The translations under genes and the position numbers were made by a program. The notes under the pieces are model-generated. The model had not been told where the DNA came from. It did no database searches and saw only the letters and a program-made list of their open reading frames with translations. Source: Agathobaculum sp. Marseille-P7918 (GTDB lineage: Bacteria; Bacillota; Clostridia; Oscillospirales; Butyricicoccaceae). Taken from it: a DNA stretch of 64,000 bases. Positions 17,249 through 32,402 of the stretch are shown here, in pieces. The DNA lies in assembly GCF_900625105.1 (NCBI RefSeq), contig NZ_UYYD01000001.1, positions 682,001-746,000 on the forward strand, given 5' to 3'. Numbering within the stretch: position 1 is the stretch's first letter; the number at the start of each line of letters is the position of its first letter.

Positions 17249-20200
17249 TCAGTCCATCACTTCGCCGCCGGGGGCGGAGTTTGCATCGGACCATTCTTTT
17301 TCCAGTGCCGCCCAGTCACGGTCTTCCAGCTTCTCGGTCCAGTTCTCAATCTGGTTGTTCTCTGCACCGGTCCACTCGTAATCGTGGCTGTTGGTCGCTT
17401 CCTGCATCTGTGCATAGTACCATGCGCCGGTATCGCGGTTATCCGGCCATACGCGCATTTTGCTCGTCGGCAGCAGATGATCCTTATCCGGTACACGGCC
17501 CAGCGTGCGGTTGACGATCGTGCACGCCTCAGCACGCGTGATGCTCGCTTCCGGATGGATGGTGCCGTCCGGATAACCTTCGATCAGGCCGAGATCCACG
17601 GCCGCGTCGATGAAGTCCGCATACCAAGCGTTCGCCGGGACGTCCGCGTAGGTGCCGTCCACATAGTTGCCCGCCTCGTCGAAGAAGCTGACGGCAATCT
17701 TGGTGAACTCGGCACGCGTGATGCTGTCGTTCGGGCGGAACGAGCCGTCCGGATCACCCGACAGGATGCCCATATTGGCCAGCGTCGAGATCGCATTGTT
17801 GTACCAGTCGGTGGACGCCACATCCGTAAAGTTGTTGGTCTGGCTCCAGTTGGTGCTGCGCGCCTCGTCGGTCAGCATACGGAAGAAGATGGTCGCCACT
17901 TCCGCGCGGGTGATATCGCCCTGCGGCTCGATCGGCCAGCGGGACTCGTCATCGGTCGGCTCGCCGGTCTGGTAATCCTTCGGATAGCCGATGATGTACG
18001 CAAAGTGGTCTTCCGTGTTCAGGTCGTCCGGCGTGGGTCTGCTCGAAGAGCCACCCGAGCTTTCCTTCTCCCAGAACAGGGCAAACGGCGAGAAGGAATC
18101 TACGCTAATCTTGATACCCTGATCCGTGTTTTCCAGATTACCGTTTTCCTCGGAATACAGGACCATGGTGTAATCGCCCTCTCCGAGGTCGGTGTTGTCG
18201 TTTCGATCCAAACCTTCATAGTGCACGATCTGGAACTTCGTATTCTTGTCCGTGCCTTCCGGGTACGGCCAATAAATGGCTACAGTATCGCTTGCCGTGA
18301 CATAAACATTGCCGTTGGTGGTGTCCACCAGATCCAGATACCGCGTCTCGTAGTCGTAGTTATCCGTGATCGAGTTAAACTCTTCCACCGCACTGTTGAC
18401 CAGCGTATTCTCCGAGCCGGGCACCAGGCTGTCTACCAGCAGCTTGACCTGATTGCCTTCTTCAACTTCCAGTTCGCTGCCGTTGATAAAGAAGTGCGTA
18501 CCATCGTTAACCTGTGCCGTGACATTGGATACCTCGGTTTCGGGCGTCGTCGTCACAACCTCGGTCGTTGCCGTATGGTCGTCCGTGATACCGCGCACGG
18601 TCAGCTTGCCAGGTGTCACCGCTGCATCATATACGCTGTCATTCTTATCAATCGTAATCACGGCCTTGACCAGATGCTGCTGCAAAGCACCGCCGTAAAT
18701 GGTCATCTCATATTCATGATACAGATCATTCAGATTCACGGTGAAGTCATCACTGGTCATAAAGGTATCGCCATCGGTAAACTGCAGACGAATCGGGATT
18801 ATCTGATCGTTCACTTCTGCGGGCAGAATACGGTAGATGTACTTATTGTACGCCATGCTGGCATGTCCATCATGCTTGTCATACCGCTCCAGCTTCCACA
18901 GACGTGTGTTGCCCTGGCCGTCATCATACGTAAACGAGAGATACTTGGACAGGTCGATGACCTTGTCTCCGTTATCATTTACGGTGATATCTGCAGAATT
19001 CACTTGCTTGAGGAGCTGCTGATTGAGCGATGCCGGCAGGGTGATATAGAAGCCCGGTGTCGGCAGACCATTGGTAGTCGATCCGATCTCATTGCCGCTG
19101 CCGTTTACCACGCTGTCATAGCCGTCGCCGCCGGTGTAAATCGTGATGTCCGCCGGGGTGATGGTAATGCCGCCAGCCGTATAGGATACGGTCGGTTTTG
19201 CGAAATTCTCCGGCAAACCCTGCTTGCCATTGGAGTCGACAGGATACAGGGTCGCACTGTTGTTCGTACACAGGCCAGTATAGCCCTCGCTACCATCTGC
19301 GTCATACCGTCCATAGCTGCCCGCATCCGTCTGCGGATTGGTCAGCTTGACCGTATAAGTCAGCTGGACCGGTGCATCCTTGGTGACAGGAACATTGATC
19401 TTCCATACGAAATGTTCGCCGGACTGTGTCGCCGTGCCGTTCTGGTAATAGTTGAGGACAAATTGATAATTGTCTACCTCGGTCTTGCCAAAGCCATAGC
19501 TTGCAGTCGCACCATCCTGAGGTGTAATGGACTCCACGTTCAAAGCGGTTCCATTTACGGTGAGCTTCAAGTTCGCAATATCATTGACAAAATCAAAATT
19601 GTAGGCTACGCCGTTTTCATCCTGACCATTGCCGATGACGTCCACAACCTGAGACCCTGCGTCTACCAGCTGCACCAAATCCTCGCGGATTCCGTCAAAC
19701 ACGCCTGCTGCCGCCCCGCCGGTAAGCGCTTCTTCCGCTTTGTTCGTCCGATACCGGTAGGACTTAACCGCGCCTGCCTCTTCCAGCTTGTCAAGCATTT
19801 CCTGTACCATCGATTGGGCATAGGGTGCATCCTCGCCGATCGGGAAGCTGTTGTTAACCACGATAACATGCGCTGTCTTTGCAGCCTCTACCAAATTATC
19901 ATAGGTCAGGCACAGGGACTTTTCAAAACCGGAGAACGTGTGGGACCCTACCTGATAGGCTGTTTTAATCGTATTCGCGGGCGAAGCATTTCCGTAAATG
20001 CTCCAGTAGCTGTCCCAGGAAGAGTCACGGAAGAAGCCGTCCGGTGTCGTATCACTCACTGTTCTGTTTGCATACGCCTCTGCAAAGGTAGTGTACTGAG
20101 TTCCCATGGACATGGAACCCTGATCCCATGTATCGATGCGCTTGCTCACCGGCACATTCGAATACGTTGTATCACCGATTGTCAGATCCCCGCGGTAAAT

Positions 20201-22225
20201 ATAACCGTAAAGATCGCTGAACATAATGAGGTATTTCTCCTCACCGGAGCCCGCGGCAAGCATGTCTTGTGCCATGTCAACGGGCCATTCAGTGTTGGTG
20301 CCGCCGACCTTCATTGTATATCCCGTACCGCTATAACTGAGCTGCGTGGATACCGCCGTCTTCAGTGCTGCCAAGGCGTCGTCATTCTTCAGAGAAACCA
20401 GTCCGCTATATTTTCCACCGCTGGTTGCACTCAGCCAATCACGGGAAACCGCGTCAAACGCCACGACACCCACCTTGATATCCATGGTGTCTTTTGCGGC
20501 CAGCTCATCAAGCAAGTTGCCGACCGACTCTTCAAAGATCTCAGAACCGGCGTGGCTATCGTCGATGACAAACACGACATCCATCGTCCGCTCATAATCC
20601 GCCGCAGGCAACGCCAGCGTCACATCGGACTCATAATTGGCGTCCAGATTGGTCGCCGTCTTGGACTTGGAAATATCCCAAGACGGAGGTGTAACCGGAA
20701 CATCATTGACCGTGTAGCTCACTTTCGGAACAGGAAATTCCTCGGTGGTCTCATTGCCAATGGTAGGAGTATATGTCAGGGTTGCTTCTTCATTGGTCGG
20801 AACAGAATACGTTCCGGAAGTGGTTTCTTTGTTCTTCAGCGTCAGATTATAGGTCAGTTTGAGCGGTTTAGTACTTTCGACCGGTACATTGATTGCAAGA
20901 TCAAACTGCTCGCGAGAATCTGCATCCTTTCCATTCGAATAATACGTCAAAACATACGGATAAGTGCCGGAGCCATCGGGAGAACCGAACTTAACCACAT
21001 TAGAATTTGCAGAATCAACACTGGCTGCCTGTTCTTCGCCGCCTACTGTAAGCTTGAAGGTGTCTGCCGCGATACTATCTGCATTTGTCAGATCGAAATC
21101 ATCGCCAATAACATCATTGATGGTGCCGCTCATAATTTCATACAGAACCGTATTTTTCACACCATCAAACATGCCGGAATAATCATTCTCGTCATCTTCG
21201 TCAAAGATGGAAGAAAAACCGCCTATCGTATCCAAGTTACCGATAAATGCAGATGCCCACGGATAATAGCCTTCTTCGTTTAAGTTGGCGTCCGTGCCTT
21301 TTGCATATTTATCAGATGCAAACGCATACAGCCGATATCCCGCATCGGCAGCATCCTGCCATGCCTTTCCAGCCATATAAATCGCGGCGTCATTAGAAAT
21401 ATATCCGGTATTGTTTTCGATAGAAACATATTTTGCAGGAGTGGTGTCCTGATTCGTTTGATATGTATTAATAACGGTTTCCAATGCCGCATTATCTCGC
21501 ATCCATTGAGCCGGATTTTCAAACGACTTTACATAATCCAATTGTGTGATCTTAAAGAAGTTTTTATCAACCACACTGGCAGCGGTACTGTTGCTGCTCC
21601 AAATTTGGGTTGCATTATCTGCTCCTTTAAACTGGACATACATTGTCTTTGGCGTATCTTCCGTGCCCCAAAGGTAAGTCACGCCATCCGTTACCAGCAC
21701 CAGATGCTTGTTTTCTGGCAGGACATCCGTATCCTGCTCAAGCATCGCCATACCGGCACGGATGCCAGCCTCAATATTGGTGCCATCCGAAAGAGGTTTG
21801 TTAAAAATTTCTTCAATCTTGTCGCGACTCTCAGCATTTAACTCGGTCAGGTCAAGGTTAAATTCTTTATTATTGGCGACCTTGTTAAAAGTGACAACAC
21901 CGACATTCACCTGCAGATTATTGTCTGTCGTATAATTCTTCAGCTCATCCAGCATTGCCAATGCTTCGTCTTTTACGTTTGTGCTGGTCGACTTGTCCAG
22001 CACAAACACAACGTCAGCCGCTGTTGTGGTTTGTGTTGCGCCAATGGTCAGTGTCACATCCGTCTGGTCATTCTCAAGGTCAGTTGCCGTTTTGTCTAAC
22101 TGCACATTTCCAGCAACTCTCGTACCCGTCGAGGAATCACCTCCATCCGCCGCAAACGCAACAGTCGGTGTCATTGTCAGGAGCATGCATATCATCAGAA
22201 ATGCCGACAATAATCGTTTCTTCAT
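17249..22225 (-). CDS. Giant twin-vWA, SLH-anchored surface protein (probably phase variable)
   Basis: 1658-residue exported protein. The signal peptide (MKKRLLSAFLMICMLL, cut after AFA near residue 25) is followed by a von Willebrand A domain from about 71 with an intact MIDAS start DKSTS (77-81) and TDG (179-181). A second vWA domain from about 548 has a degenerate metal motif (DDSHAG). Several beta-sandwich segments follow, then three C-terminal SLH motifs (about 1430-1600; ITRAEVAT, ITRAEFTK, ITRAEACT). It probably acts as a wall-bound adhesin or binding protein, with the metal-binding vWA as the ligand site. TAAGGAGG precedes the ATG. Its upstream region contains a likely invertible promoter next to a recombinase. 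The N-terminal third is visibly more AT-rich than the flanking genes, suggesting diversification or transfer. Confidence 0.85.
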   Translation of the reverse strand: MKKRLLSAFLMICMLLTMTPTVAFAADGGDSSTGTRVAGNVQLDKTATDLENDQTDVTLTIGATQTTTAADVVFVLDKSTSTNVKDEALAMLDELKNYTTDNNLQVNVGVVTFNKVANNKEFNLDLTELNAESRDKIEEIFNKPLSDGTNIEAGIRAGMAMLEQDTDVLPENKHLVLVTDGVTYLWGTEDTPKTMYVQFKGADNATQIWSSNSTAASVVDKNFFKITQLDYVKSFENPAQWMRDNAALETVINTYQTNQDTTPAKYVSIENNTGYISNDAAIYMAGKAWQDAADAGYRLYAFASDKYAKGTDANLNEEGYYPWASAFIGNLDTIGGFSSIFDEDDENDYSGMFDGVKNTVLYEIMSGTINDVIGDDFDLTNADSIAADTFKLTVGGEEQAASVDSANSNVVKFGSPDGSGTYPYVLTYYSNGKDADSREQFDLAINVPVESTKPLKLTYNLTLKNKETTSGTYSVPTNEEATLTYTPTIGNETTEEFPVPKVSYTVNDVPVTPPSWDISKSKTATNLDANYESDVTLALPAADYERTMDVVFVIDDSHAGSEIFEESVGNLLDELAAKDTMDIKVGVVAFDAVSRDWLSATSGGKYSGLVSLKNDDALAALKTAVSTQLSYSGTGYTMKVGGTNTEWPVDMAQDMLAAGSGEEKYLIMFSDLYGYIYRGDLTIGDTTYSNVPVSKRIDTWDQGSMSMGTQYTTFAEAYANRTVSDTTPDGFFRDSSWDSYWSIYGNASPANTIKTAYQVGSHTFSGFEKSLCLTYDNLVEAAKTAHVIVVNNSFPIGEDAPYAQSMVQEMLDKLEEAGAVKSYRYRTNKAEEALTGGAAAGVFDGIREDLVQLVDAGSQVVDVIGNGQDENGVAYNFDFVNDIANLKLTVNGTALNVESITPQDGATASYGFGKTEVDNYQFVLNYYQNGTATQSGEHFVWKINVPVTKDAPVQLTYTVKLTNPQTDAGSYGRYDADGSEGYTGLCTNNSATLYPVDSNGKQGLPENFAKPTVSYTAGGITITPADITIYTGGDGYDSVVNGSGNEIGSTTNGLPTPGFYITLPASLNQQLLKQVNSADITVNDNGDKVIDLSKYLSFTYDDGQGNTRLWKLERYDKHDGHASMAYNKYIYRILPAEVNDQIIPIRLQFTDGDTFMTSDDFTVNLNDLYHEYEMTIYGGALQQHLVKAVITIDKNDSVYDAAVTPGKLTVRGITDDHTATTEVVTTTPETEVSNVTAQVNDGTHFFINGSELEVEEGNQVKLLVDSLVPGSENTLVNSAVEEFNSITDNYDYETRYLDLVDTTNGNVYVTASDTVAIYWPYPEGTDKNTKFQIVHYEGLDRNDNTDLGEGDYTMVLYSEENGNLENTDQGIKISVDSFSPFALFWEKESSGGSSSRPTPDDLNTEDHFAYIIGYPKDYQTGEPTDDESRWPIEPQGDITRAEVATIFFRMLTDEARSTNWSQTNNFTDVASTDWYNNAISTLANMGILSGDPDGSFRPNDSITRAEFTKIAVSFFDEAGNYVDGTYADVPANAWYADFIDAAVDLGLIEGYPDGTIHPEASITRAEACTIVNRTLGRVPDKDHLLPTSKMRVWPDNRDTGAWYYAQMQEATNSHDYEWTGAENNQIENWTEKLEDRDWAALEKEWSDANSAPGGEVMD

Positions 22226-22637
22226 TTTACTTCCTCCTTATGCAAAGACTGTATATATATAAACATCCATTTGGATGGAATTTCCTTTCCCTGGTATCGT
22301 ATGCCATACGGGAGGTCGAATTTTGTCATTTTTTGCGGTTCTTCAGCCCGGACTGTATCAATATCTTTTGATACGTCCCTGACGCACGCGGCTGGTCTGT
22401 CCCGCGCACACCAGACAGCCGCCTTTGTGCTCGCCGGTGTGGGAAAATCATAACAGTCTGCCGCACATGCCTTCGGTGCAGCGCCACCATACCTTCTGTT
22501 TGCTGTCGTAAGAGATGCTGTCCGGTGTCAGAGATGCATTGCACGAAACGCCCCACTGTGCCAACAAATCCTCTCAATCCAGTCTCACGCAATAGGCCGT
22601 CAACGCTTCCCGTACTGTCTTCTTCCCCTCCATCACG
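22226..22637 (-). promoter_or_regulatory. Long structured leader between inverton and surface-protein gene
   Basis: 412 bases without a convincing gene. As minus-strand RNA it can form strong stems: an 11-bp stem with one bulge at 22350-22378 (GGAC-GTATCAA / TTGATAC-GTCC), and a long stem at 22384-22430 (GCGGCTG-TCTG arms). Neither is followed by a T-run, so they are not terminators. I could not match the layout to a known riboswitch. If the promoter flips, this would be a roughly 470-nt 5' UTR. Confidence 0.4.
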
Positions 22638-22655
22638 AAATCAACATTTTGTGAT
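22638..22655 (+). repeat. Left inverted repeat of putative invertible element
   Basis: 18-bp AAATCAACATTTTGTGAT. It is the exact reverse complement of 22885-22902, and the match extends outward to 21 bp with one mismatch. It has internal dyad arms ATCA..TGAT, as expected for a tyrosine-recombinase core site. Confidence 0.8.
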
Positions 22656-22811
22656 TGCCATTTTTGTGCGAATTACCGGTAGAGATTGTAAAAAACGGAA
22701 TAATTATGCATTTTGAACGTTTTTAGCGCAAAAAAGGCGCAAAAAGCCAGGGCTACAAGAAAAAATGCAACTTGTATCCCTGTTTTGCCATGCCTGCGCC
22801 AATGGAGTCGC

Positions 22812-22840
22812 TTGCGAACTTCCAAAAACTGTGCTATAAT
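22812..22840 (+). promoter_or_regulatory. Extended -10 promoter inside the invertible segment
   Basis: TTGCGA, 17-base spacer, TATAAT preceded by TGC (extended -10). It is one of the best promoters in the window, and in this orientation it has no gene in front of it on the plus strand. Confidence 0.8.
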
Positions 22841-22884
22841 TGCGATAAAATATGTACACAAAAAACAATTGACAGCAGACAATC

Positions 22885-22902
22885 ATCACAAAATGTTGAT
22901 TT
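22885..22902 (-). repeat. Right inverted repeat of putative invertible element
   Basis: Exact reverse complement of 22638-22655. It ends 4 bp before the recombinase stop codon at 22907. Confidence 0.8.
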
Positions 22903-22906
22903 TGTC

Positions 22907-23752
22907 CTATGAGACCAGCCCCAGCTTTTCCAGCTGCCGGGCATGCTCCTTACCCGAGGTGACAAGGTAAATGCGCGTGGTCTCGATTGAAGAATGCCCC
23001 AGCACATCCGCCAGATGCACGATATCCTTGCAGACCTGATAGAACGCGGTGGCAAACAAGTGCCGCAGGTTGTGTGGAAACACCTTGGTCGGTTCGACCC
23101 TCGCATAGCTGCACAGATGCTTCATCTCCGCCCAGATCTGCCGTCTGGACAGACTTTTGCCGCTTGCGGTGAGAAAAATCTCGCCGGAGGCGGTTTTTTG
23201 CTGCTCAGCATATTGCAGCAGCTTGCGGGCGAGCTTCTTGGGCAGCAGAATGGTGCGGATTTTGCCCTTGAGCGCGATCTCCGCGCGGCCGCGCCGGGCT
23301 GCTTCGACCGTGATATACTTGACCTCGGAAACCCGAATGCCGGTCGAGCAGATGGTCTCCATCAGCAGCGCCAGCCGCTGCTGACGCAGCGCTTGCGCCG
23401 CCGCCAGCAAACGCGCATATTCCGCCTTGGTCAGCTCCCGCGCGGATTCCCGGAACAGCCGCCGCTGCACCTTGAGGTATTTCACATGACAGTCATTCCA
23501 GCCGAGGAAACGGCACAAGCTGTTGACCGCGGCCAGCATGGAATTGATGGTCACCGGCGCGTAACGGCGAAGCATCAAATACGACTTCCACTCGACCAGC
23601 TTGATGTTGTCCACCCGCCCGCGGCCGAGCCACAGCTGAAACGCCCGCACATCCCGCAGATATTTTTCGATCGTCCCCGCGCTGCGCTCTTCCGCGCGCA
23701 AATGCTGTTCATAAGCCGCAACCAGTCTTGCGGTCAGTTGATGTCCATCCAT
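22907..23752 (-). CDS. Tyrosine site-specific recombinase (putative invertase)
   Basis: 281-residue integrase of the XerC/D-like type. An N-terminal SAM-like core-binding domain (about 8-90) is followed by the catalytic domain with the full set of residues: Arg140 in STGIRVSEV, Lys near 162-164, HNLR (His227, Arg230), LGHSSIETT (His253), and the nucleophile Tyr262 in RIYL. It cuts and rejoins DNA through a 3'-phosphotyrosine. CGGAGG precedes the ATG. No phage or transposon genes surround it, and an 18-bp inverted repeat touches its 3' end, so a local DNA-inversion role is more likely than element integration. Confidence 0.88.
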   Translation of the reverse strand: MDGHQLTARLVAAYEQHLRAEERSAGTIEKYLRDVRAFQLWLGRGRVDNIKLVEWKSYLMLRRYAPVTINSMLAAVNSLCRFLGWNDCHVKYLKVQRRLFRESARELTKAEYARLLAAAQALRQQRLALLMETICSTGIRVSEVKYITVEAARRGRAEIALKGKIRTILLPKKLARKLLQYAEQQKTASGEIFLTASGKSLSRRQIWAEMKHLCSYARVEPTKVFPHNLRHLFATAFYQVCKDIVHLADVLGHSSIETTRIYLVTSGKEHARQLEKLGLVS

Positions 23753-23904
23753 TTGGAAAACCTCCGTTTAGCAAAGATTAAAATTATTTTACCGTATTAT
23801 TCTGCCACAATTCAGATAAAAATCATTCCTATTTTGCCTGTTTTTCTCTCTTTCTGGTATACAAGACAACAATCATTGCACCCGTGCAAAACGCAGCCAA
23901 CAAA

Positions 23905-23937
23905 AAAAGAGGCGCTCCCAATCGGAGCGCCTCTTTT
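23905..23937 (-). terminator. Terminator after the double-metallophosphatase SLH gene
   Basis: 14-bp perfect arms (AAAAGAGGCGCTCC / GGAGCGCCTCTTTT) with T7 on the minus strand, 27 bases past the stop. Confidence 0.92.
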
Positions 23938-23963
23938 GGCGTTAGCAATTCTATATATTTATC

Positions 23964-26900
23964 TTACTGTGCATCCAGTTCATAGAACCGCATTAGAATG
24001 GTGGCCACCTGCGCGCGGGTCGCCATGCCCTGCGGACTGAGGGTGGTCGAGGTCGTGCCGGTGATCAGGCCCTGCTGCACCGCCCAGAGCATCGCCGTCT
24101 GCGCGTAATCGCTGACGCTGTCCGCATCGGCAAAATCCGTCAGGCTGCCGCTGACCGCCGGGCTGCCCGCATAGCGCCACAGCATCGTGGCCAGCTGCTC
24201 ACGGGTCAGGCTGCTCTCCATGTCGGAACCGTCCGAAATGCCCTTATCCATAGACCACTGACGGCCTGCCGCATACCAGGTATCGCCGACCGTGGTGTCC
24301 ACGCCTTCCCCGCGGGCCAGCACCGTAACGAACATGGCGCGGCTCATGGCGGTGTCGGGCGAGAACGTGGTTGCGCTGGTTCCGTTGAACAGCGCACGGC
24401 TGGTGACAAAGTCCACCGCATCCGCGCCCCAGAAGGAGTCGGGCACATCGGCAAAGTGCTTGCTGTTGTCCACGATCTTGATCCGGTCGCCCGCCGAGAT
24501 TTCCACCGCAATGCCATGGTCGGTGGGCAGGCTGTCCGAAAGGACCTCCTCGCTGCCGTCCGGCTTGACGATGACCGCCACCATACCGGCGGTGACGTCC
24601 TCGACCGGAACCTCCACCTTGGTGCTTTGGTCGTCCGGCCATTTCACCGTGATGACCGGTGCGTCCGCGGTTTGTGCGGTGACCGGCACTTCCGGCATGG
24701 GCAGGTGTACGGCCTCGCCGGTCTCATGCGCATGCTGCACCACTTCTTCCGGCAGCACCACTTCCACGTCCATGTGGCCGTCCTTGTCGATCTCCGCCAC
24801 CGACGAGCTGCCGTCCGGCGCTTCGGTGGTCTCCGTGCAGGAGCCGTCGGGGTTGGTGACCGTGGTCGTGACCGAGCCGTCCGGATTGGTCACGGTTTCC
24901 GTCTCCCCGTCGGCTGTGCCGCCGGTGCTGCCGCCGCCCGAGCCGCCGGTGCTGCCGCCGCCCGAGCCACCGGTGCTACCGCCGCTCTCCTGCTGCCAGG
25001 TCGCCGTGACGGCAACCGCCTTGTCCGGCATGACAAACGTCGTATCCGCGGCCGATGCATCCGCGAAGGTCACGCCGTCACCGCTCGTCCAGCCCGCAAA
25101 CGTGTAGCCGCTGCGCGTGCCGGCCGCAATGCGAACCGTCTCGCCCGGCGTGTAGTCGCCCGCGCCCGTATTTTCGGCATAACTGCCGCTGACCGTCACG
25201 GCGTACTTGGTCTCGGGCTGCGGCTGTGCGCCCACCGTGATCTGCACGGTATTGGCATTGCCGTATGCATCCTGCACATAAACCGTGTGCGTGCCGCTTT
25301 CCAGCGCAGCGCCCGAGAGATAGGGCGTTTCGGCGCCGTCGATGAATACCGTGCAGCCGTCCGGCACGGTCAGGCTGTTTCCGTCCAGCGTACCGTCCGC
25401 CGCAACACCGGTCAGCACCGGCGTTTTCCGGAGGATGTCCACAGTGAAGGACGCAGTCATGTCCTCATGCCCCTGAATCCGGAACCGATAGGTGGTCTGA
25501 TTGACCTTGTCCGTCGCGGGCACGGTGATGTCGCCCGTGTACGGCTTCCACTGGCTGCCGTCGGTGCTGTACTCGATCTCGCCTTGCAGGCCGGCCTGCA
25601 AGGCGGCGGTCAGCGTCACGTCCTGATTGGTCTTGGTACCGGTCGTATATGCGCTGCCGCCGGCGGTCGCGCGGACCACGATCGGGTCGGTGATGCTGTC
25701 AAAGGCCGCCTCCACCGTCAGATCTTCCCGGATGACGACCGTGCTGCCCGAGGCAATGTCCTTGCCGTTCACTTGCAGCTTGGTCAGGCGGAAACCGTAG
25801 TCGGGCGCTGCCGTGACGGTCAGCGCCGTGCCGCGGGTGAAGGTCTGGGCATTGGTCAGCGCCAGCTGGCTCGCGGCCTGCGCGACCGCAATGCTGCCGC
25901 CCGTCGGCGTTGCCCAGCGCACGGTGTATTGCGGCACGATGACGGTCAGCTCGCTGGTATTGCCGTATGCATCGTGCAGCACCATCGTATGGCTGCCGCC
26001 GGGGATATCGCTGCCGCTGGTGTAGGGCACGCCGTCCACCGTGGCGGTCATGCCGTCGGGCAGCGCGATCGAGTTCAGATACGGTGCATCCTCACGGGCG
26101 GGCAGTTCGCCGCCGTCCTCGATGCCGTCCAAAGTCGGCGCCGCCTTGCAAATGTCCACGGCGAAGCAGGCGTACCGATCGGCCTGCTCCTGCTGGTCGG
26201 CATAGGCGAAGGTGTAGACCGCACTGCGCGCCGCGCCCTGCTCGACCTGCACGGTGATGGGCGCAGTATAGGACTGCCATTCGCCGTCGCCCAGCCGATA
26301 GCAGATGTCCTTGCCACTCTCTCCGGTGACCGTGATGGTCACATCCTGATTGGTCTTGACCCCGCCGGCAATCGGCTGTCCGTCCGCGGTCTGCGCGGAA
26401 ACGGTCAGCGCATCGCGCACCTTGTCAAAGGTGACGGTCTTGCCCGCGGTCAGGCCGGTTGCCTTGCCGTTGTACAGCAGCGCGGCAGTCAGTTCGACGG
26501 TGCCGCCGGCCTGAGAAGAGCGGTGCAGCGTGCTGCCGGTCAGGTACGCGCCGCTGCCGGACACCGACCAGCTGACCGAGACCCCTGCGGGCAAAGTGTC
26601 CACGCCGGTGTCCAGTTCATAGGTTTTCTCGGTATCGTCCTCGGCAAAGGTATCGTCGCCGCGGATGGACAGATCGACGCAGGCGATTTCGATGGTGTCC
26701 GCCTTGCCGGAAGGCGCGGTCGCCGTGATCTGCACGGTGCCCGCCTGATGCGCGGTGACCACGCCGTCCGCATCGACGCTCGCGATCGCGTCATCGCTGC
26801 TCTTCCAGGTCAGCCGGTTGTTCAGCGCCGTATAGGGGAACGTGCTGGATTGCAGCGCCAGCGTGCCGTCCACCGCGACCACAGGCGCCGCCGCCTTGAT

Positions 26901-29900
26901 CTGCACCTGCTCGACGGGCACATTGTTCACCTGCCGCACCGGGGACAGCAGCCACAGGTTGCACCATGCGCCGCCGCCCACGATGTTGCCGGCCTCGGCT
27001 ACGTCGGTCAGCCTGCCGCCGTAAACCACGCGCAGCTTGGCATAAACCTGCTGCACGCCGGTTTGGGTCAGCTGGGCCGTCATGCGGTTGTCGGTCAGGG
27101 TGTAACCGCGGCCGCTGTTGTCGCCGGTGTTCAGCTGGAGGCTGGTGTCCAGCTTGCCGCTTTCATTGGCTGCGAGCGCCTGCAGTGTAGCGGGCGCGGC
27201 GTCCATGGCGTAAATGCCCGCGGCGTCCTGATGCGCCTGCGCGACGTACAGGCCAGCGGTATCCACCGCCAGATCCAGATTGTTGTCCGTTGCCACTTGC
27301 AGCGCGGACACGGTCACGCCGTTCTGGCCGATGAGCTGGGCAGTGCCGCCCACATAGATGGCGGGCTTGTCATCCCAGCCGCTTTCGCCGGTCCACTCAG
27401 TCCACAGGCACACGTTGGCGTCCGACTGCACCGTGCCGCCGCTCAGGAAAACGTCGCCCTCGGCGTTGATGGCCGAGGCCTGCGACTGCGCGTTATGGAT
27501 TGCGCCGCCGGTCATAGTTAGCTCACCCACGTTATGTACGCTCTGCACGTTGCCGGAGGTGATGGTGATGTCGCCGGCGCTGTAAATGGCCTGGATGTTG
27601 TCCTGATCGGTGGTCACGGTGCTGCCGGCCACCACGATGGTATCGGTGGCATTGCCGGCGTACACCGCTTCGCGGCTGCCGTGCACCGTGCCGGTGCCGT
27701 TGAGGTAAACCGCGCCGGTGCAGCCCTGCGGGATGACAACGGCATGGCCGGAGTTGGTCGTATTTCCCGAACTCGTCCCCTTAAAGGAAGCATCATTGGT
27801 CAGGGTCTGGCGGATGGAGGTGGAACCCTGGGTAATGAGGGTGCCGTTCTCAATATAAATCAGGTTAATGGGGGTGATATCGGCCTTTTTGCCGCCCTCC
27901 TGACTCTTGAAGTCCACATCCTTGAGCACAACCGTGGCGCCGCCCGTGATGGTCAGGATGCAGCGTTCCCACACGTTGCCCTGTCCTTCGATAGTCACCG
28001 AGTGGTTGATGGTGTATTCCCAGTTGTTGTCCTTGGTGTTGATCTGCTGGCCCAAAAAGTTTTCCTCGTAACCGCCGAAGGTGCAGGTGCCGTTGAGGGT
28101 GATCTTGCTGACGGTGGGATCGCTCAGGGCATTGCGCAGCTCGGTACCGTTGCTGACCGTGACGCTTTTGCCCGCGCTGCCGGTTTGCAGCAGGTTCAGC
28201 ATCGCTTCGGCGTTTTCCAGCACGGACAGGTTGGTCACCTGCGCCTGCTCCTCGGCGCTCAGCGCAGCATAAGCGGTCCGGGCGGCCTGCACTTTGGCCG
28301 CGTCGTCCAGCGTGATAGCCGTGGGCAGGGCGTTGATCTGATCGATCACCTGCTGCGCTGCTGTTTTGGCGGGCTGGTCGCTCTTGCAGATCGAGAAGCT
28401 GTCGTACACCGCGCCGTCCTCGGTATAGGCGGTGTAATACAGGCTGTCGCCCTCGATCTCGATCCCGCTGTACACGGACTGGTACGGCTGGCCCTCCTTT
28501 TCGCTTGCAAAACCGAAATCCACGCTGCTGTCAAACTCGTAATACTTGACGCCGCTGGTGGAAGGGATGACAAACATCGTGCCGGACGGGTTGGTGGTTT
28601 GCTGATAGGTCACGCCGTCCTTCTCGATGGTGGTGGTGTTGGAGGAATTGTCCACTTCCTCGCCATGGCTTAAGAAAGGCGTGCGCAGATAGGTGTGGTC
28701 GTGGCCGGAAAGCACCAGATCCACGCCGTACTCCGCACAGAAGGTATCCAGCGTGCTGCGCAGCGCCAGCACATCGGACTCGTCGCCGTGCGGCCCCTTG
28801 GAATAGGGCGCCTTATGCGCCAGCACGATCAGCCAATCGGTGTCGGCGGACGCAGCTACGCTCTCGGCCCACTTCAGCTGCGCCTCGCCGATGGCGTTGT
28901 CGCCGTCGTTGGTGTTGAGCACGATAAAGGTGGCGTTTTTGTACTCATAGGAGTAATAAATGCCGGTGGAATCGTCCTGTTCGGGGATATTCAGGTTGTA
29001 ATGCGCCTGCAGCGCGTTGGGCAGGTCGCCTTTCTCCGAGCGGGCTTCATGGTTGCCCGCGACCGGCAGGACCGGCATCGACTGCATCTCGTCGGTGTCC
29101 AGCACCCAGCTCCAGTAATTTTCGTTGATGCCGTCGTCCACCATATCGCCCAAATGCGTGACGAACGCGGCGTCCGGGAAGGTCTGCTGCGCCTGCGCGA
29201 GCACGTTGTTATAGTGCGCGTAATCGCTCTCGGTCGAGCCCTGCGAGTCGGCCACGCTGATGAAGCTGAAGCCATCGGCATCCGCATCGCCCCGCAGCAG
29301 CACCGGCTCGCTCCAAAGCGCACCATACTGGCCGTCGGTGCCGACGCGATACCAATAATCCTTGCCTTCCTCCAGCGTCACCGCCGCCGTATGGCGCTCG
29401 GCGTTAATGATATCATAGGTCGTCACGAGGATCAGGTTGAGCTTGACCTTGGCCTTCTGCACCTGCTCGCTGTCTGCCTGCACGGTCGTGACATTGCTGC
29501 CGGACTGCATGGCCTCCGCCGCCTGCTGGGCGTTGAGGATGCCGTCGGCCTCCACCAGCTGCACCTCGCCTTCGGTGATATCGGTACCAGTGTACCACGA
29601 GAAGGTTCGACCGGTTTCAGGATTCGCGGTATCCATGGAAACCGTGATCTGATACGGCAGCGTGCCGTTTTCCACCGAGGGGCTTTGCACGGCTTCGCCT
29701 GTGTAGGTCAGAACAGCCTGCTTGCCGTCCACCACGTCGTCCAGATCGTCCTCGTCCACGGCAAAGCCCGAGATCATGTTGTCCGCCACGCCGCCGACGC
29801 TGGTGAAAAAGCTGTCGGACAGGTACTCGGTGATCAGGCCGTTCAGGATCTCTTCAATATTGACGCCGAACGTATCCAGGAGCTTGGCCACCGAGGGGTT

Positions 29901-31877
29901 GCTGCCGAAAATGGCCTTGGTCGCCGTGCCCCACATCGCATTGCGGCCGAACAGCGTGTCCATGCTGACGGTCAGGCTGTTGGTGACGTCGTTGATGAAG
30001 CCGTAGATGGAAACATCCTCCGGATAGCTGTCCTCCGGCGTGCCCTGGATGATCTCCATCACCCGCTGCTCGAGCAGCTTGCCGTCCGCCAGCACCGCAA
30101 GGCCCTGTTCCTCCCAGTCCTCCAGCGGCAGCACGTCCTCGCCGGCGTTGTGCCGCTGGAACATGGCGCGCACCAAATCCTGCAGCGTGTGGCCGTCGGT
30201 CTCGTCCACCAGCACGGTGCTGACCGCGTCCACGATCAGCTGGTCGAGACGCTCATCCAGCTCGCCGCCGACAATGTACTTTTCTTCGAACTGATCGAGG
30301 ACGCTCTGGACCTCGGTCTTGATGTCGCTGTTGCGCACGGTAAAGCTGCCCAGCAGCCCGGCCGCGCCGCTGGTGGGATTGAGGTGCACGCCGTCGCCGT
30401 CGCCCCAGTTGTCCACCGTGCCGTCCGAGGAATAGCTGATGGTCAACTCGCCGACCGAGCCGCCCAGATCCACCTTTTTCTCCCCGCTGAGCAGGCCGGG
30501 CAGCGCATCAAACAGGGTCTGATACAGGTCGAGTCCTGCGATGTTCTGCATCGCAGCCGGCACATCGGCCAGCTGGTCCAGATAGCGGTCCGCATAGCGG
30601 TGGATCAGCTTGACGATGAACGAATCGCCGTACATGGCATCGGTCATATAGTCCGCCACATCCACCTTTTCGGTGTTGGTCAGATTGCCGCCCGGTGCAT
30701 CCAGACAGGCATTCATGGTCGCCTGCTTGACGCTGACGGACGAAACCTCCAGCTGCTCCTGCACTTTATCTCCGCTGGTGTGCCGGGTGGCGGTCACCAT
30801 GCGGTACGGCGCGGGATAGGCGACCAGACTGCCGGTCTCCATGTCATACAGGGTATTGCCGGACGCGGTCGTGTAGCTGGCAATATCATTTTCATGCATA
30901 TGGCCGGTATACACCCAGCGCAGGCCGGCATCCGCCAGCGTCTTGACCAGCGTATTGTTGACATCGGTTGTGTAACCGTTTTCACCGCTCTGGATCTGCG
31001 CGCGGTCGGTGATGAACTCGGTCTCGCTGGTGGTGTTGTGCGCCAGCAGCGGATGGTGCATGCCGGCGACCACGGTCAGGCCCGCCTGCGCGCACTTGTC
31101 CAGCTCCGCTTGGATCCACGCCAGCAGATCGTCCGAGATCATGCCCTTGCCGGTGCCCCACGCCTTGCCCTGACCGTTGAAGTCCGCGGTATAGATCTCG
31201 GTGTCGATCATCAGGAAGGCGTAGCCCTTAGTCGTGACCGCCAGATAGGACAGGCCGCCCTGACAGTCGGCGATACCGTCCTCGCCCAGATCTTCCGCAT
31301 AGTATTCGATGGACGACAGCGTGCCGTTGGACGCGGCCACAGTCGCGGCTTCGTCATAGCCCATGGAAGCGTAGATCTGTCGGAAATCCGCTTCGGTGGT
31401 CCACAGCGAACCGCTGCCGTTGTCCTTGACCTGCGTGTCGTTTTCAAAGGTCATGGCGCTGCTGTTGTACAGGTCATGGTTGCCGGGGATCACCAGCACG
31501 GTGACGCCGGCTTGCTGCAGCCGGTTCATCTGTGCGGCAAAGCCCTTGTGGCTTTCCAGCTCGCCTTCGCTGGAAAGGTCGCCGGTGACCAGCAGGACTT
31601 CCGGCAGGTCGCCGTCCTCCAGCATCTGGTCCACCGCGCCGGTGGTCAGCGCCTCGCCCTCGCCCATCAGGCGCAGGTCGCCGCTGATCTGATTCTGATA
31701 ATCCTCCGCCCGGGTACCGTTATACCGTGTGGGGAAATAATGGGCGTCGGACATCACACCGAATCGCAGCGTGGTGTCCTCCCCCTGCTCCACAGCCAGT
31801 GCGGGTACACAAAGGCTCAGAAGCATCGCCAGCGCCAGGATCACGCTCATGACGCGGCGATGTACTGTGTGCATCAT
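23964..31877 (-). CDS. 2637-residue SLH surface protein with two metallophosphatase domains
   Basis: Exported multidomain protein. A signal peptide (MMHTVHRRVMSVILALAMLL) is followed by calcineurin-like phosphoesterase 1 (about 37-390; DAH, VTGDLSSEGE, GNHD, GMHHP, GHMHEN). A second phosphoesterase of the purple-acid-phosphatase type follows its Fn3-like lead (about 800-1170; VADSQ, LGDMVDDG, AGNHEARS, GHDHTYL). A beta-helix-like region (about 1220-1480) is next, then Big_2 and other Ig-like repeats, an InlB-type repeat (SGYTFAGWTSGDG), a Gly/Ser linker, and three SLH motifs at the C-terminus. It is likely a wall-bound phosphatase/nucleotidase releasing phosphate or processing extracellular phosphoesters. 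I chose the ATG at 31877 because AAGGAGGAAG is 8-10 bases upstream. Confidence 0.85.
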   Translation of the reverse strand: MMHTVHRRVMSVILALAMLLSLCVPALAVEQGEDTTLRFGVMSDAHYFPTRYNGTRAEDYQNQISGDLRLMGEGEALTTGAVDQMLEDGDLPEVLLVTGDLSSEGELESHKGFAAQMNRLQQAGVTVLVIPGNHDLYNSSAMTFENDTQVKDNGSGSLWTTEADFRQIYASMGYDEAATVAASNGTLSSIEYYAEDLGEDGIADCQGGLSYLAVTTKGYAFLMIDTEIYTADFNGQGKAWGTGKGMISDDLLAWIQAELDKCAQAGLTVVAGMHHPLLAHNTTSETEFITDRAQIQSGENGYTTDVNNTLVKTLADAGLRWVYTGHMHENDIASYTTASGNTLYDMETGSLVAYPAPYRMVTATRHTSGDKVQEQLEVSSVSVKQATMNACLDAPGGNLTNTEKVDVADYMTDAMYGDSFIVKLIHRYADRYLDQLADVPAAMQNIAGLDLYQTLFDALPGLLSGEKKVDLGGSVGELTISYSSDGTVDNWGDGDGVHLNPTSGAAGLLGSFTVRNSDIKTEVQSVLDQFEEKYIVGGELDERLDQLIVDAVSTVLVDETDGHTLQDLVRAMFQRHNAGEDVLPLEDWEEQGLAVLADGKLLEQRVMEIIQGTPEDSYPEDVSIYGFINDVTNSLTVSMDTLFGRNAMWGTATKAIFGSNPSVAKLLDTFGVNIEEILNGLITEYLSDSFFTSVGGVADNMISGFAVDEDDLDDVVDGKQAVLTYTGEAVQSPSVENGTLPYQITVSMDTANPETGRTFSWYTGTDITEGEVQLVEADGILNAQQAAEAMQSGSNVTTVQADSEQVQKAKVKLNLILVTTYDIINAERHTAAVTLEEGKDYWYRVGTDGQYGALWSEPVLLRGDADADGFSFISVADSQGSTESDYAHYNNVLAQAQQTFPDAAFVTHLGDMVDDGINENYWSWVLDTDEMQSMPVLPVAGNHEARSEKGDLPNALQAHYNLNIPEQDDSTGIYYSYEYKNATFIVLNTNDGDNAIGEAQLKWAESVAASADTDWLIVLAHKAPYSKGPHGDESDVLALRSTLDTFCAEYGVDLVLSGHDHTYLRTPFLSHGEEVDNSSNTTTIEKDGVTYQQTTNPSGTMFVIPSTSGVKYYEFDSSVDFGFASEKEGQPYQSVYSGIEIEGDSLYYTAYTEDGAVYDSFSICKSDQPAKTAAQQVIDQINALPTAITLDDAAKVQAARTAYAALSAEEQAQVTNLSVLENAEAMLNLLQTGSAGKSVTVSNGTELRNALSDPTVSKITLNGTCTFGGYEENFLGQQINTKDNNWEYTINHSVTIEGQGNVWERCILTITGGATVVLKDVDFKSQEGGKKADITPINLIYIENGTLITQGSTSIRQTLTNDASFKGTSSGNTTNSGHAVVIPQGCTGAVYLNGTGTVHGSREAVYAGNATDTIVVAGSTVTTDQDNIQAIYSAGDITITSGNVQSVHNVGELTMTGGAIHNAQSQASAINAEGDVFLSGGTVQSDANVCLWTEWTGESGWDDKPAIYVGGTAQLIGQNGVTVSALQVATDNNLDLAVDTAGLYVAQAHQDAAGIYAMDAAPATLQALAANESGKLDTSLQLNTGDNSGRGYTLTDNRMTAQLTQTGVQQVYAKLRVVYGGRLTDVAEAGNIVGGGAWCNLWLLSPVRQVNNVPVEQVQIKAAAPVVAVDGTLALQSSTFPYTALNNRLTWKSSDDAIASVDADGVVTAHQAGTVQITATAPSGKADTIEIACVDLSIRGDDTFAEDDTEKTYELDTGVDTLPAGVSVSWSVSGSGAYLTGSTLHRSSQAGGTVELTAALLYNGKATGLTAGKTVTFDKVRDALTVSAQTADGQPIAGGVKTNQDVTITVTGESGKDICYRLGDGEWQSYTAPITVQVEQGAARSAVYTFAYADQQEQADRYACFAVDICKAAPTLDGIEDGGELPAREDAPYLNSIALPDGMTATVDGVPYTSGSDIPGGSHTMVLHDAYGNTSELTVIVPQYTVRWATPTGGSIAVAQAASQLALTNAQTFTRGTALTVTAAPDYGFRLTKLQVNGKDIASGSTVVIREDLTVEAAFDSITDPIVVRATAGGSAYTTGTKTNQDVTLTAALQAGLQGEIEYSTDGSQWKPYTGDITVPATDKVNQTTYRFRIQGHEDMTASFTVDILRKTPVLTGVAADGTLDGNSLTVPDGCTVFIDGAETPYLSGAALESGTHTVYVQDAYGNANTVQITVGAQPQPETKYAVTVSGSYAENTGAGDYTPGETVRIAAGTRSGYTFAGWTSGDGVTFADASAADTTFVMPDKAVAVTATWQQESGGSTGGSGGGSTGGSGGGSTGGTADGETETVTNPDGSVTTTVTNPDGSCTETTEAPDGSSSVAEIDKDGHMDVEVVLPEEVVQHAHETGEAVHLPMPEVPVTAQTADAPVITVKWPDDQSTKVEVPVEDVTAGMVAVIVKPDGSEEVLSDSLPTDHGIAVEISAGDRIKIVDNSKHFADVPDSFWGADAVDFVTSRALFNGTSATTFSPDTAMSRAMFVTVLARGEGVDTTVGDTWYAAGRQWSMDKGISDGSDMESSLTREQLATMLWRYAGSPAVSGSLTDFADADSVSDYAQTAMLWAVQQGLITGTTSTTLSPQGMATRAQVATILMRFYELDAQ
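24919..24987. repeat. 24-bp tandem repeat encoding a Gly/Ser linker
   Basis: Two exact copies of a 24-bp unit (24919-24942, 24943-24966) and a third partial, diverged copy. They encode repeated GGSTGGSG. It is probably a length-variable spacer before the wall-anchor region. Confidence 0.85.
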
Positions 31878-32402
31878 TGGTTTCTTCCTCCTTCTCAAAA
31901 AAAAAACATGCAGGGGAATCGTACCATAAATGCCGGCTTGCTTCCGTCCGGATTGTGTATTTTTTATGTTAATTCTTCCGTCTCCAAACTTTTCCTTCTC
32001 GAATTCACGTTTAAAAAACTATCGTCATTTTACATAAATATCAATTAATATACATATACAAATCGCACAACACAGCCCTTTCCTCATGAGAATACGGCAT
32101 ATCCCCAATTCTCCAAATATATCCAAATAATTTGCAGAAAAACTCGTATAGACTTGTATATAATGTACAAATACAGCTTTACCGCGGTAAAATAATGCAC
32201 AAACTTAAGAAAAATGCACAACATTTTATTGACATTTTTATTATCCGCTCTTAAGATGAAGCTAGGATTTCATTTATATCCAAGATGTATACAAGATTCG
32301 AAATGCGCATTCGATTTGTATGATTATCCATGCAAAGCAGTGAGGTGGTGTCTTCCGCACAAAGATTGAGAAAAGAGACAGAATCACAGAAGGAGGATTC
32401 AA
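31878..32402. other. AT-rich divergent intergenic region
   Basis: 525 bases between the divergent double-phosphatase and tandem-esterase genes, far more AT-rich than the surroundings. It holds the strong rightward promoter at 32229-32257, an imperfect hairpin at 32289-32321 (ATACAA / TTGTAT arms) in the esterase leader, and only weak leftward promoter candidates. No gene is seen. Confidence 0.6.
32229..32257 (+). promoter_or_regulatory. Promoter of the tandem-esterase SLH gene
   Basis: Consensus TTGACA, 17-base spacer, TAAGAT. The predicted leader is about 140 nt. Confidence 0.8.

Follow-up and report, generated by a model that had tools for sequence, protein, structure and literature searches.

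In the 64-kb window, the whole stretch of DNA analysed here, a tyrosine recombinase of 281 residues is encoded on the minus strand at positions 22907 to 23752, and a segment of 229 bp (22656 to 22884), framed by two inverted-repeat arms (22635 to 22655 on the left; 22885 to 22905 on the right, 1 nt off the recombinase stop codon), lies between it and the gene of an exported surface protein of 1658 residues, also on the minus strand (17249 to 22225). The latter has the SLH anchor that the original prediction had attributed to it, but it was also described there as bearing twin vWA domains, and Pfam finds a single one, with no match for the second (about residues 520 to 960). As the SLH anchor and the vWA domain come together with a GBS104-like tip-pilin Ig domain, this make-up renders it plausible that the protein acts as an adhesin. 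Upstream of the gene, what had been seen as a plain leader of 409 nt turns out to contain a decayed accessory gene (22358 to 22633, minus strand), encoding a DUF4379 protein of the zinc-finger kind: about one repeat is left, with two in-frame stops, and its matches have E-values of about 1e-12 to 1e-18. The same gene is unbroken at four homologous loci (L185, L103, L128 and L043). Rfam, run over the region, gave only matches to leader families, all of them below threshold. On the other side of the recombinase, a terminator-like hairpin (23905 to 23937, minus strand) comes after the upstream gene, between that gene and the recombinase; this neighbour (23964 to 31898, minus strand) codes for an exported SLH protein of 2644 residues with two metallophosphatase stretches.

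The core of the arms is an exact 18-bp repeat, at 22638 to 22655 and, as its reverse complement, at 22885 to 22902 (two matches, for 0.05 expected by shuffling), precisely as had been predicted; it lengthens to 21 bp at the price of one mismatch. The window holds no other exact inverted repeat of at least 14 bp at a spacing of 100 to 500 bp, shuffled windows having none or one, and a search for the arm elsewhere in the genome, up to three mismatches being allowed, gave only one site, at three mismatches. Each arm contains a half-site dyad, ACAAAAT-N4-ATTTTGT, and in this respect looks as expected of a complete core site for a tyrosine recombinase. With at least six of the seven half-site positions matched, the dyad is present in 54 of 82 arms of the family as against 22 of 246 shuffled arms. 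What we have, then, are inverted repeats around a short intergenic segment, the arrangement of a promoter inverton.

The segment contains a sigma-A-like promoter recognized by sequence match, TTGCGA-17-TATAAT with a TGC extended -10 (22812 to 22840, plus strand), located between the repeats as foreseen. It is the sole promoter-like site in a scan from 22200 to 24000, where shuffles average 1.7, and by itself it is statistically not significant; it has meaning because it is conserved in homologues. Its -10 stands 44 nt away from the arm that it faces, while in the homologous spacers, mostly of 200 to 270 bp, this distance is mostly 45 to 50 nt, and 63 of 81 spacer promoters rank above 95% of shuffles. 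In the sequenced orientation the promoter heads toward the 3′ end of the recombinase gene and away from the surface gene, in agreement with the view that the genome copy is OFF. When the flip was simulated, transcription was placed to start near 22693, at a distance of 468 nt from the ATG of the surface gene, where about 470 nt had been announced. Judged by its sequence, the segment would accordingly be endowed with an internal promoter, presumably active, that faces its target in one orientation only.

Behind this promoter, sequence and fold reveal a stem-loop (CAGGGCTACAAG / CTTGTATCCCTG, 22748 to 22782) with an A tract before it and a T tract after it. These two tracts mean that it could stop transcription from both sides, and it is probably a bidirectional terminator. 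The hairpin of the window has a z of only -0.8, alone not significant; at the same place in homologous spacers the mean z is -1.74 (n = 81). Whichever way the segment lies, the hairpin remains between the recombinase and the surface gene, a position that would keep the OFF state tight. A terminator-like hairpin in the spacer may also suggest a switch operating at the RNA level, with a constitutive promoter outside the segment and inversion altering the structure of the terminator or of the leader, after the manner of the flagellar switch of Clostridioides difficile, which acts after initiation (PMC5386303). We consider this very unlikely: the hairpin is nearly symmetric, hence left unchanged by inversion, the promoter scan gave no promoter-like site from the surface gene to the left arm, and homologous spacers carry strong promoters at a conserved distance from the arm.

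The recombinase displays the Phage_integrase domain of Pfam together with a SAM-like domain, and its R-K-H-R-H-Y catalytic set is complete (R140, K164, H227, R230, H253 and Y262), so that the prediction of a catalytically equipped enzyme beside the right repeat is borne out. Tyrosine recombinases are often integrases of mobile elements, as are the PHROGs matches of this one, and one might be tempted to see here a chance repeat that happens to sit next to such an integrase, without any switching. The homologues make this so improbable that it can hardly be entertained. A search with the recombinase collected 80 loci from GTDB genomes, and related genomes supplied many others; a close recombinase is present in 110 of 394 sampled genomes of the order. 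An inverted repeat (score of at least 12, starting at most about 130 nt from the stop codon of the recombinase) was found in 82 of the 100 homologues with enough sequence but in only 4 of 102 upstream control regions, and in the enlarged set the position of the repeat is kept in 134 of 155 recombinase genes. Spacers inverted between colinear cassettes, considered below, contradict the idea of a chance repeat at the level of the family. We also considered whether the cassette might be phage-borne, and the phage records gave no sign of it, with one homologue at 46% and other relatives at about 30% or less.

The layout of recombinase, repeats, promoter and surface gene is common to more than 100 homologous cassettes, and R, K, H, R, H and Y are retained in all 112 near-complete recombinases. 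The promoter points inwards, to the recombinase, in 95 of 133 distinct cassettes and outwards, to the downstream gene, in 32, the remaining six being unclear. SLH domains were found in 7 of 12 large downstream proteins that were scanned; other downstream genes, read by eye from the start of their sequences, appear to be of the capsule or nucleotide-sugar type, or to correspond to flgB/flgC (L089). The plasmid set provided one close named locus, in Pusillibacter faecalis, where the annotated order agrees with that of the window: a recombinase, then a gap, then an SLH protein of 1500 residues. The genome under study has a second cassette (C34, L118), located before a 1435-aa SLH protein, with its promoter toward the SLH gene. 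We also observed that among the homologue loci contigs end near the recombinase 14 times after its stop and 6 times before its start; a hand count of low contig coordinates in the larger recombinase set gave 14 and 3. Ends falling a few hundred bp or less beyond the stop perhaps reflect mixed orientations, and this is suggestive only, because assemblies are broken by repeats too and some loci are common to both sets.

Comparison of cassettes with colinear flanks makes inversion visible. In a single MAG, the flanks of L039 and L051 are colinear (85% and 88%) and the spacer matches in the inverted sense only (78% over 195 nt). Likewise, L055 and L074 have colinear flanks, and in their case the inverted block (272 nt at 85%) extends over the whole interval between the arms. 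The closest relative of the window that was found, L185, has a recombinase 72% identical, an identical 17-bp arm core and colinear flanks on both sides; its spacer aligns to that of the window with a score of 67.4 when inverted and 53.3 when direct (shuffles giving 42 to 54), a modest similarity, and its promoter, directed toward its downstream genes, makes it look ON. Both orientations are therefore found among homologous cassettes, while the assembly of the strain itself displays a single one. As the members of these pairs are paralogues or belong to different species, what they indicate is that the segment has inverted in the course of evolution, which is distinct from switching in a culture. 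Another pair, L134 and L135, consists of cassettes 99% identical apart from a duplication of 86 nt next to the near arm, which includes an inverted piece of the start of the downstream gene, as if it came from aberrant recombination.

The single orientation of the assembly, together with the two stops that make a relic of the accessory gene in the leader, would also be in line with a locked or decayed switch, where the layout has been inherited by a copy that no longer flips, leaving the surface gene permanently OFF or dependent on another promoter. This is a very unlikely outcome, since the recombinase is intact with all its catalytic residues, the arms are nearly perfect, the promoter is strong by its sequence, and the surface gene is open over 1658 codons. 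Furthermore, over half of the cassettes in the survey lack an accessory gene from any of the four classes described below, which tells us that losing this gene need not break the switch. The reading that we hold to be very likely is the following: a self-contained invertible-promoter switch that would come with its own tyrosine recombinase and that is OFF in the assembly. The layout shared by the homologous cassettes, and the natural inversion between those with colinear flanks, sustain the promoter inverton originally proposed, and we infer that the segment 22656 to 22884 can flip in the strain itself.

The process might be pictured as follows. The recombinase would bind both arms, each of them a complete core site with its dyad half-sites, and would invert the 229-bp segment between them. 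In the OFF state, the promoter would fire into the 3′ end of the recombinase gene, leaving the SLH/vWA gene devoid of a detectable promoter. In the ON state, it would transcribe a leader of about 470 nt, with the dead DUF4379 relic, and proceed into the surface gene. In both states the bidirectional hairpin terminator behind the promoter probably insulates the transcripts of the recombinase and of the surface gene from one another. The switch family to which it belongs in Clostridia is compact, self-contained and widely distributed; it would govern the genes of SLH surface proteins, and in relatives those of the capsule type and of the flagellum. With enzyme, sites and promoter gathered in about 1.1 kb, the cassette could be moved to Escherichia coli and is directly testable.

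Similar devices have been described. Jin et al. (2025, Microbiome, PMC11892184) report an inverton group, group 139, which has 32 of its 33 members from Clostridia and whose most significant link is with a group of tyrosine recombinases. These invertons were seen to flip in Intestinimonas butyriciproducens and Clostridium sp. D5: the reads contain both orientations, and their balance changes upon passage or attachment to a surface. Paired with invertase group 35, group 139 resembles the window in its Clostridia lineage and in having a tyrosine recombinase close by, and its published coordinates give a geometry similar to that of our family (arms of 14 to 26 bp, spacers of 205 to 227 bp). It is likely that we are dealing with the same family, a match resting on geometry, lineage and the adjacent recombinase. 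The accessory genes and the terminator found in the family of the window are absent from the main-text description of group 139. In E. coli, fimS likewise associates recombinase genes with an invertible promoter of a few hundred bp that controls a surface-structure gene. However, the fimS switch has two active recombinases beside it, FimB and FimE, while the window cassette has only one, and in some relatives the second recombinase-like gene is catalytically dead, placed on the other side and included in the ON transcript. In the cwpV and flagellar switches of C. difficile, too, a Clostridia tyrosine recombinase, RecV, inverts a short stretch located upstream of a surface structure; in the family of the window, the L089 cassette stands before a flgB/flgC-like operon. 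Yet RecV works in trans and serves several sites whose repeats are dissimilar, and the flagellar switch regulates after transcription initiation (PMC5386303), which makes it a poorer precedent than the original prediction had assumed: here a single nucleotide separates the recombinase from the arm, and the promoter is inside the segment. The invertible promoters of Bacteroides (Mpi and relatives) also control surface components, but Mpi is a trans-acting enzyme with many dispersed sites, whereas in the family of the window each cassette has its own recombinase.

While the promoter switch itself is of a known kind, the slot that follows the far arm, with its accessory genes and dead recombinase, could be the new part; a search of the open-access literature gave no switch of this sort for which a dead recombinase had been described. 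Four recurring gene classes come first after the far arm in 51 of 133 cassettes: DUF4379 zinc-finger proteins, of which the window has its relic, AP2/HNH-like proteins, a small protein of about 90 residues with the signature 'YLSDL...EWNDAL', and a tyrosine-recombinase paralogue without catalytic residues. The latter was found as the first gene after the far arm at L038, L040, L045, L049, L056, L071, L072, L076, L083, L091, L094, L099, L100, L106 and L121. The catalytic tyrosine is absent from 15 of 15 intact copies, where most other catalytic residues are replaced as well, while the motifs K.NPRCL..LY and QAYDR.LE.EQL are conserved. Pairwise dN/dS values of about 0.11 to 0.29 (0.57 in the most diverged pair) indicate that the gene is under purifying selection, and its predicted fold compares with DNA-bound lambda integrase at a TM of 0.63. 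Because its gene belongs to the ON transcript, the dead recombinase is a candidate feedback regulator.

One may go further, tentatively and with more doubt than confidence, and imagine the slot as a built-in control: the dead paralogue, made in the ON state only, would bind the arms or pair with the active enzyme and set the duration of the ON state, the DUF4379, AP2/HNH-like and 'YLSDL...EWNDAL' proteins would be unrelated replacements doing the same job, and the window would have lost its copy. A tie between accessory class and orientation, DUF4379 being mostly ON and the dead recombinase mostly OFF, was a trend of the first sample that vanished with more loci. Dead recombinases also exist away from an active homologue, at L158 and L182 (both after a surface gene), L183 and L155, and since they are not always next to one, a role tied to a single enzyme is not established. 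Nevertheless, the slot, and above all the selected dead recombinase, opens the control of switching bias to experiment.

Several loci illustrate the variety of these arrangements. At L183 (799 to 2298), the dead-recombinase homologue comes right after fliW- and csrA-like genes, in a locus of the flagellar type, and the sequence examined there contains no active homologue of the recombinase. The small accessory protein (L155, 2304 to 2573, and its relatives in alignment A2) represents an unnamed family of about 90 residues, LLD.LA...GC.YLSDL...EWNDAL.YL, which is confidently modelled as all-helical; it has no Pfam match and no structural match in the PDB, and a weak NCBIfam match to anti-sigma factors falls below the cutoff. 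Finally, at L155 (593 to 3789) a serine resolvase is followed in a row by an inverted repeat of 21 to 24 bp (spacer of 115 bp) and by the genes of a dead tyrosine recombinase, of the small accessory protein and of an exported protein, and it seems, from this order of genes, that the active enzyme was swapped for one of another class.
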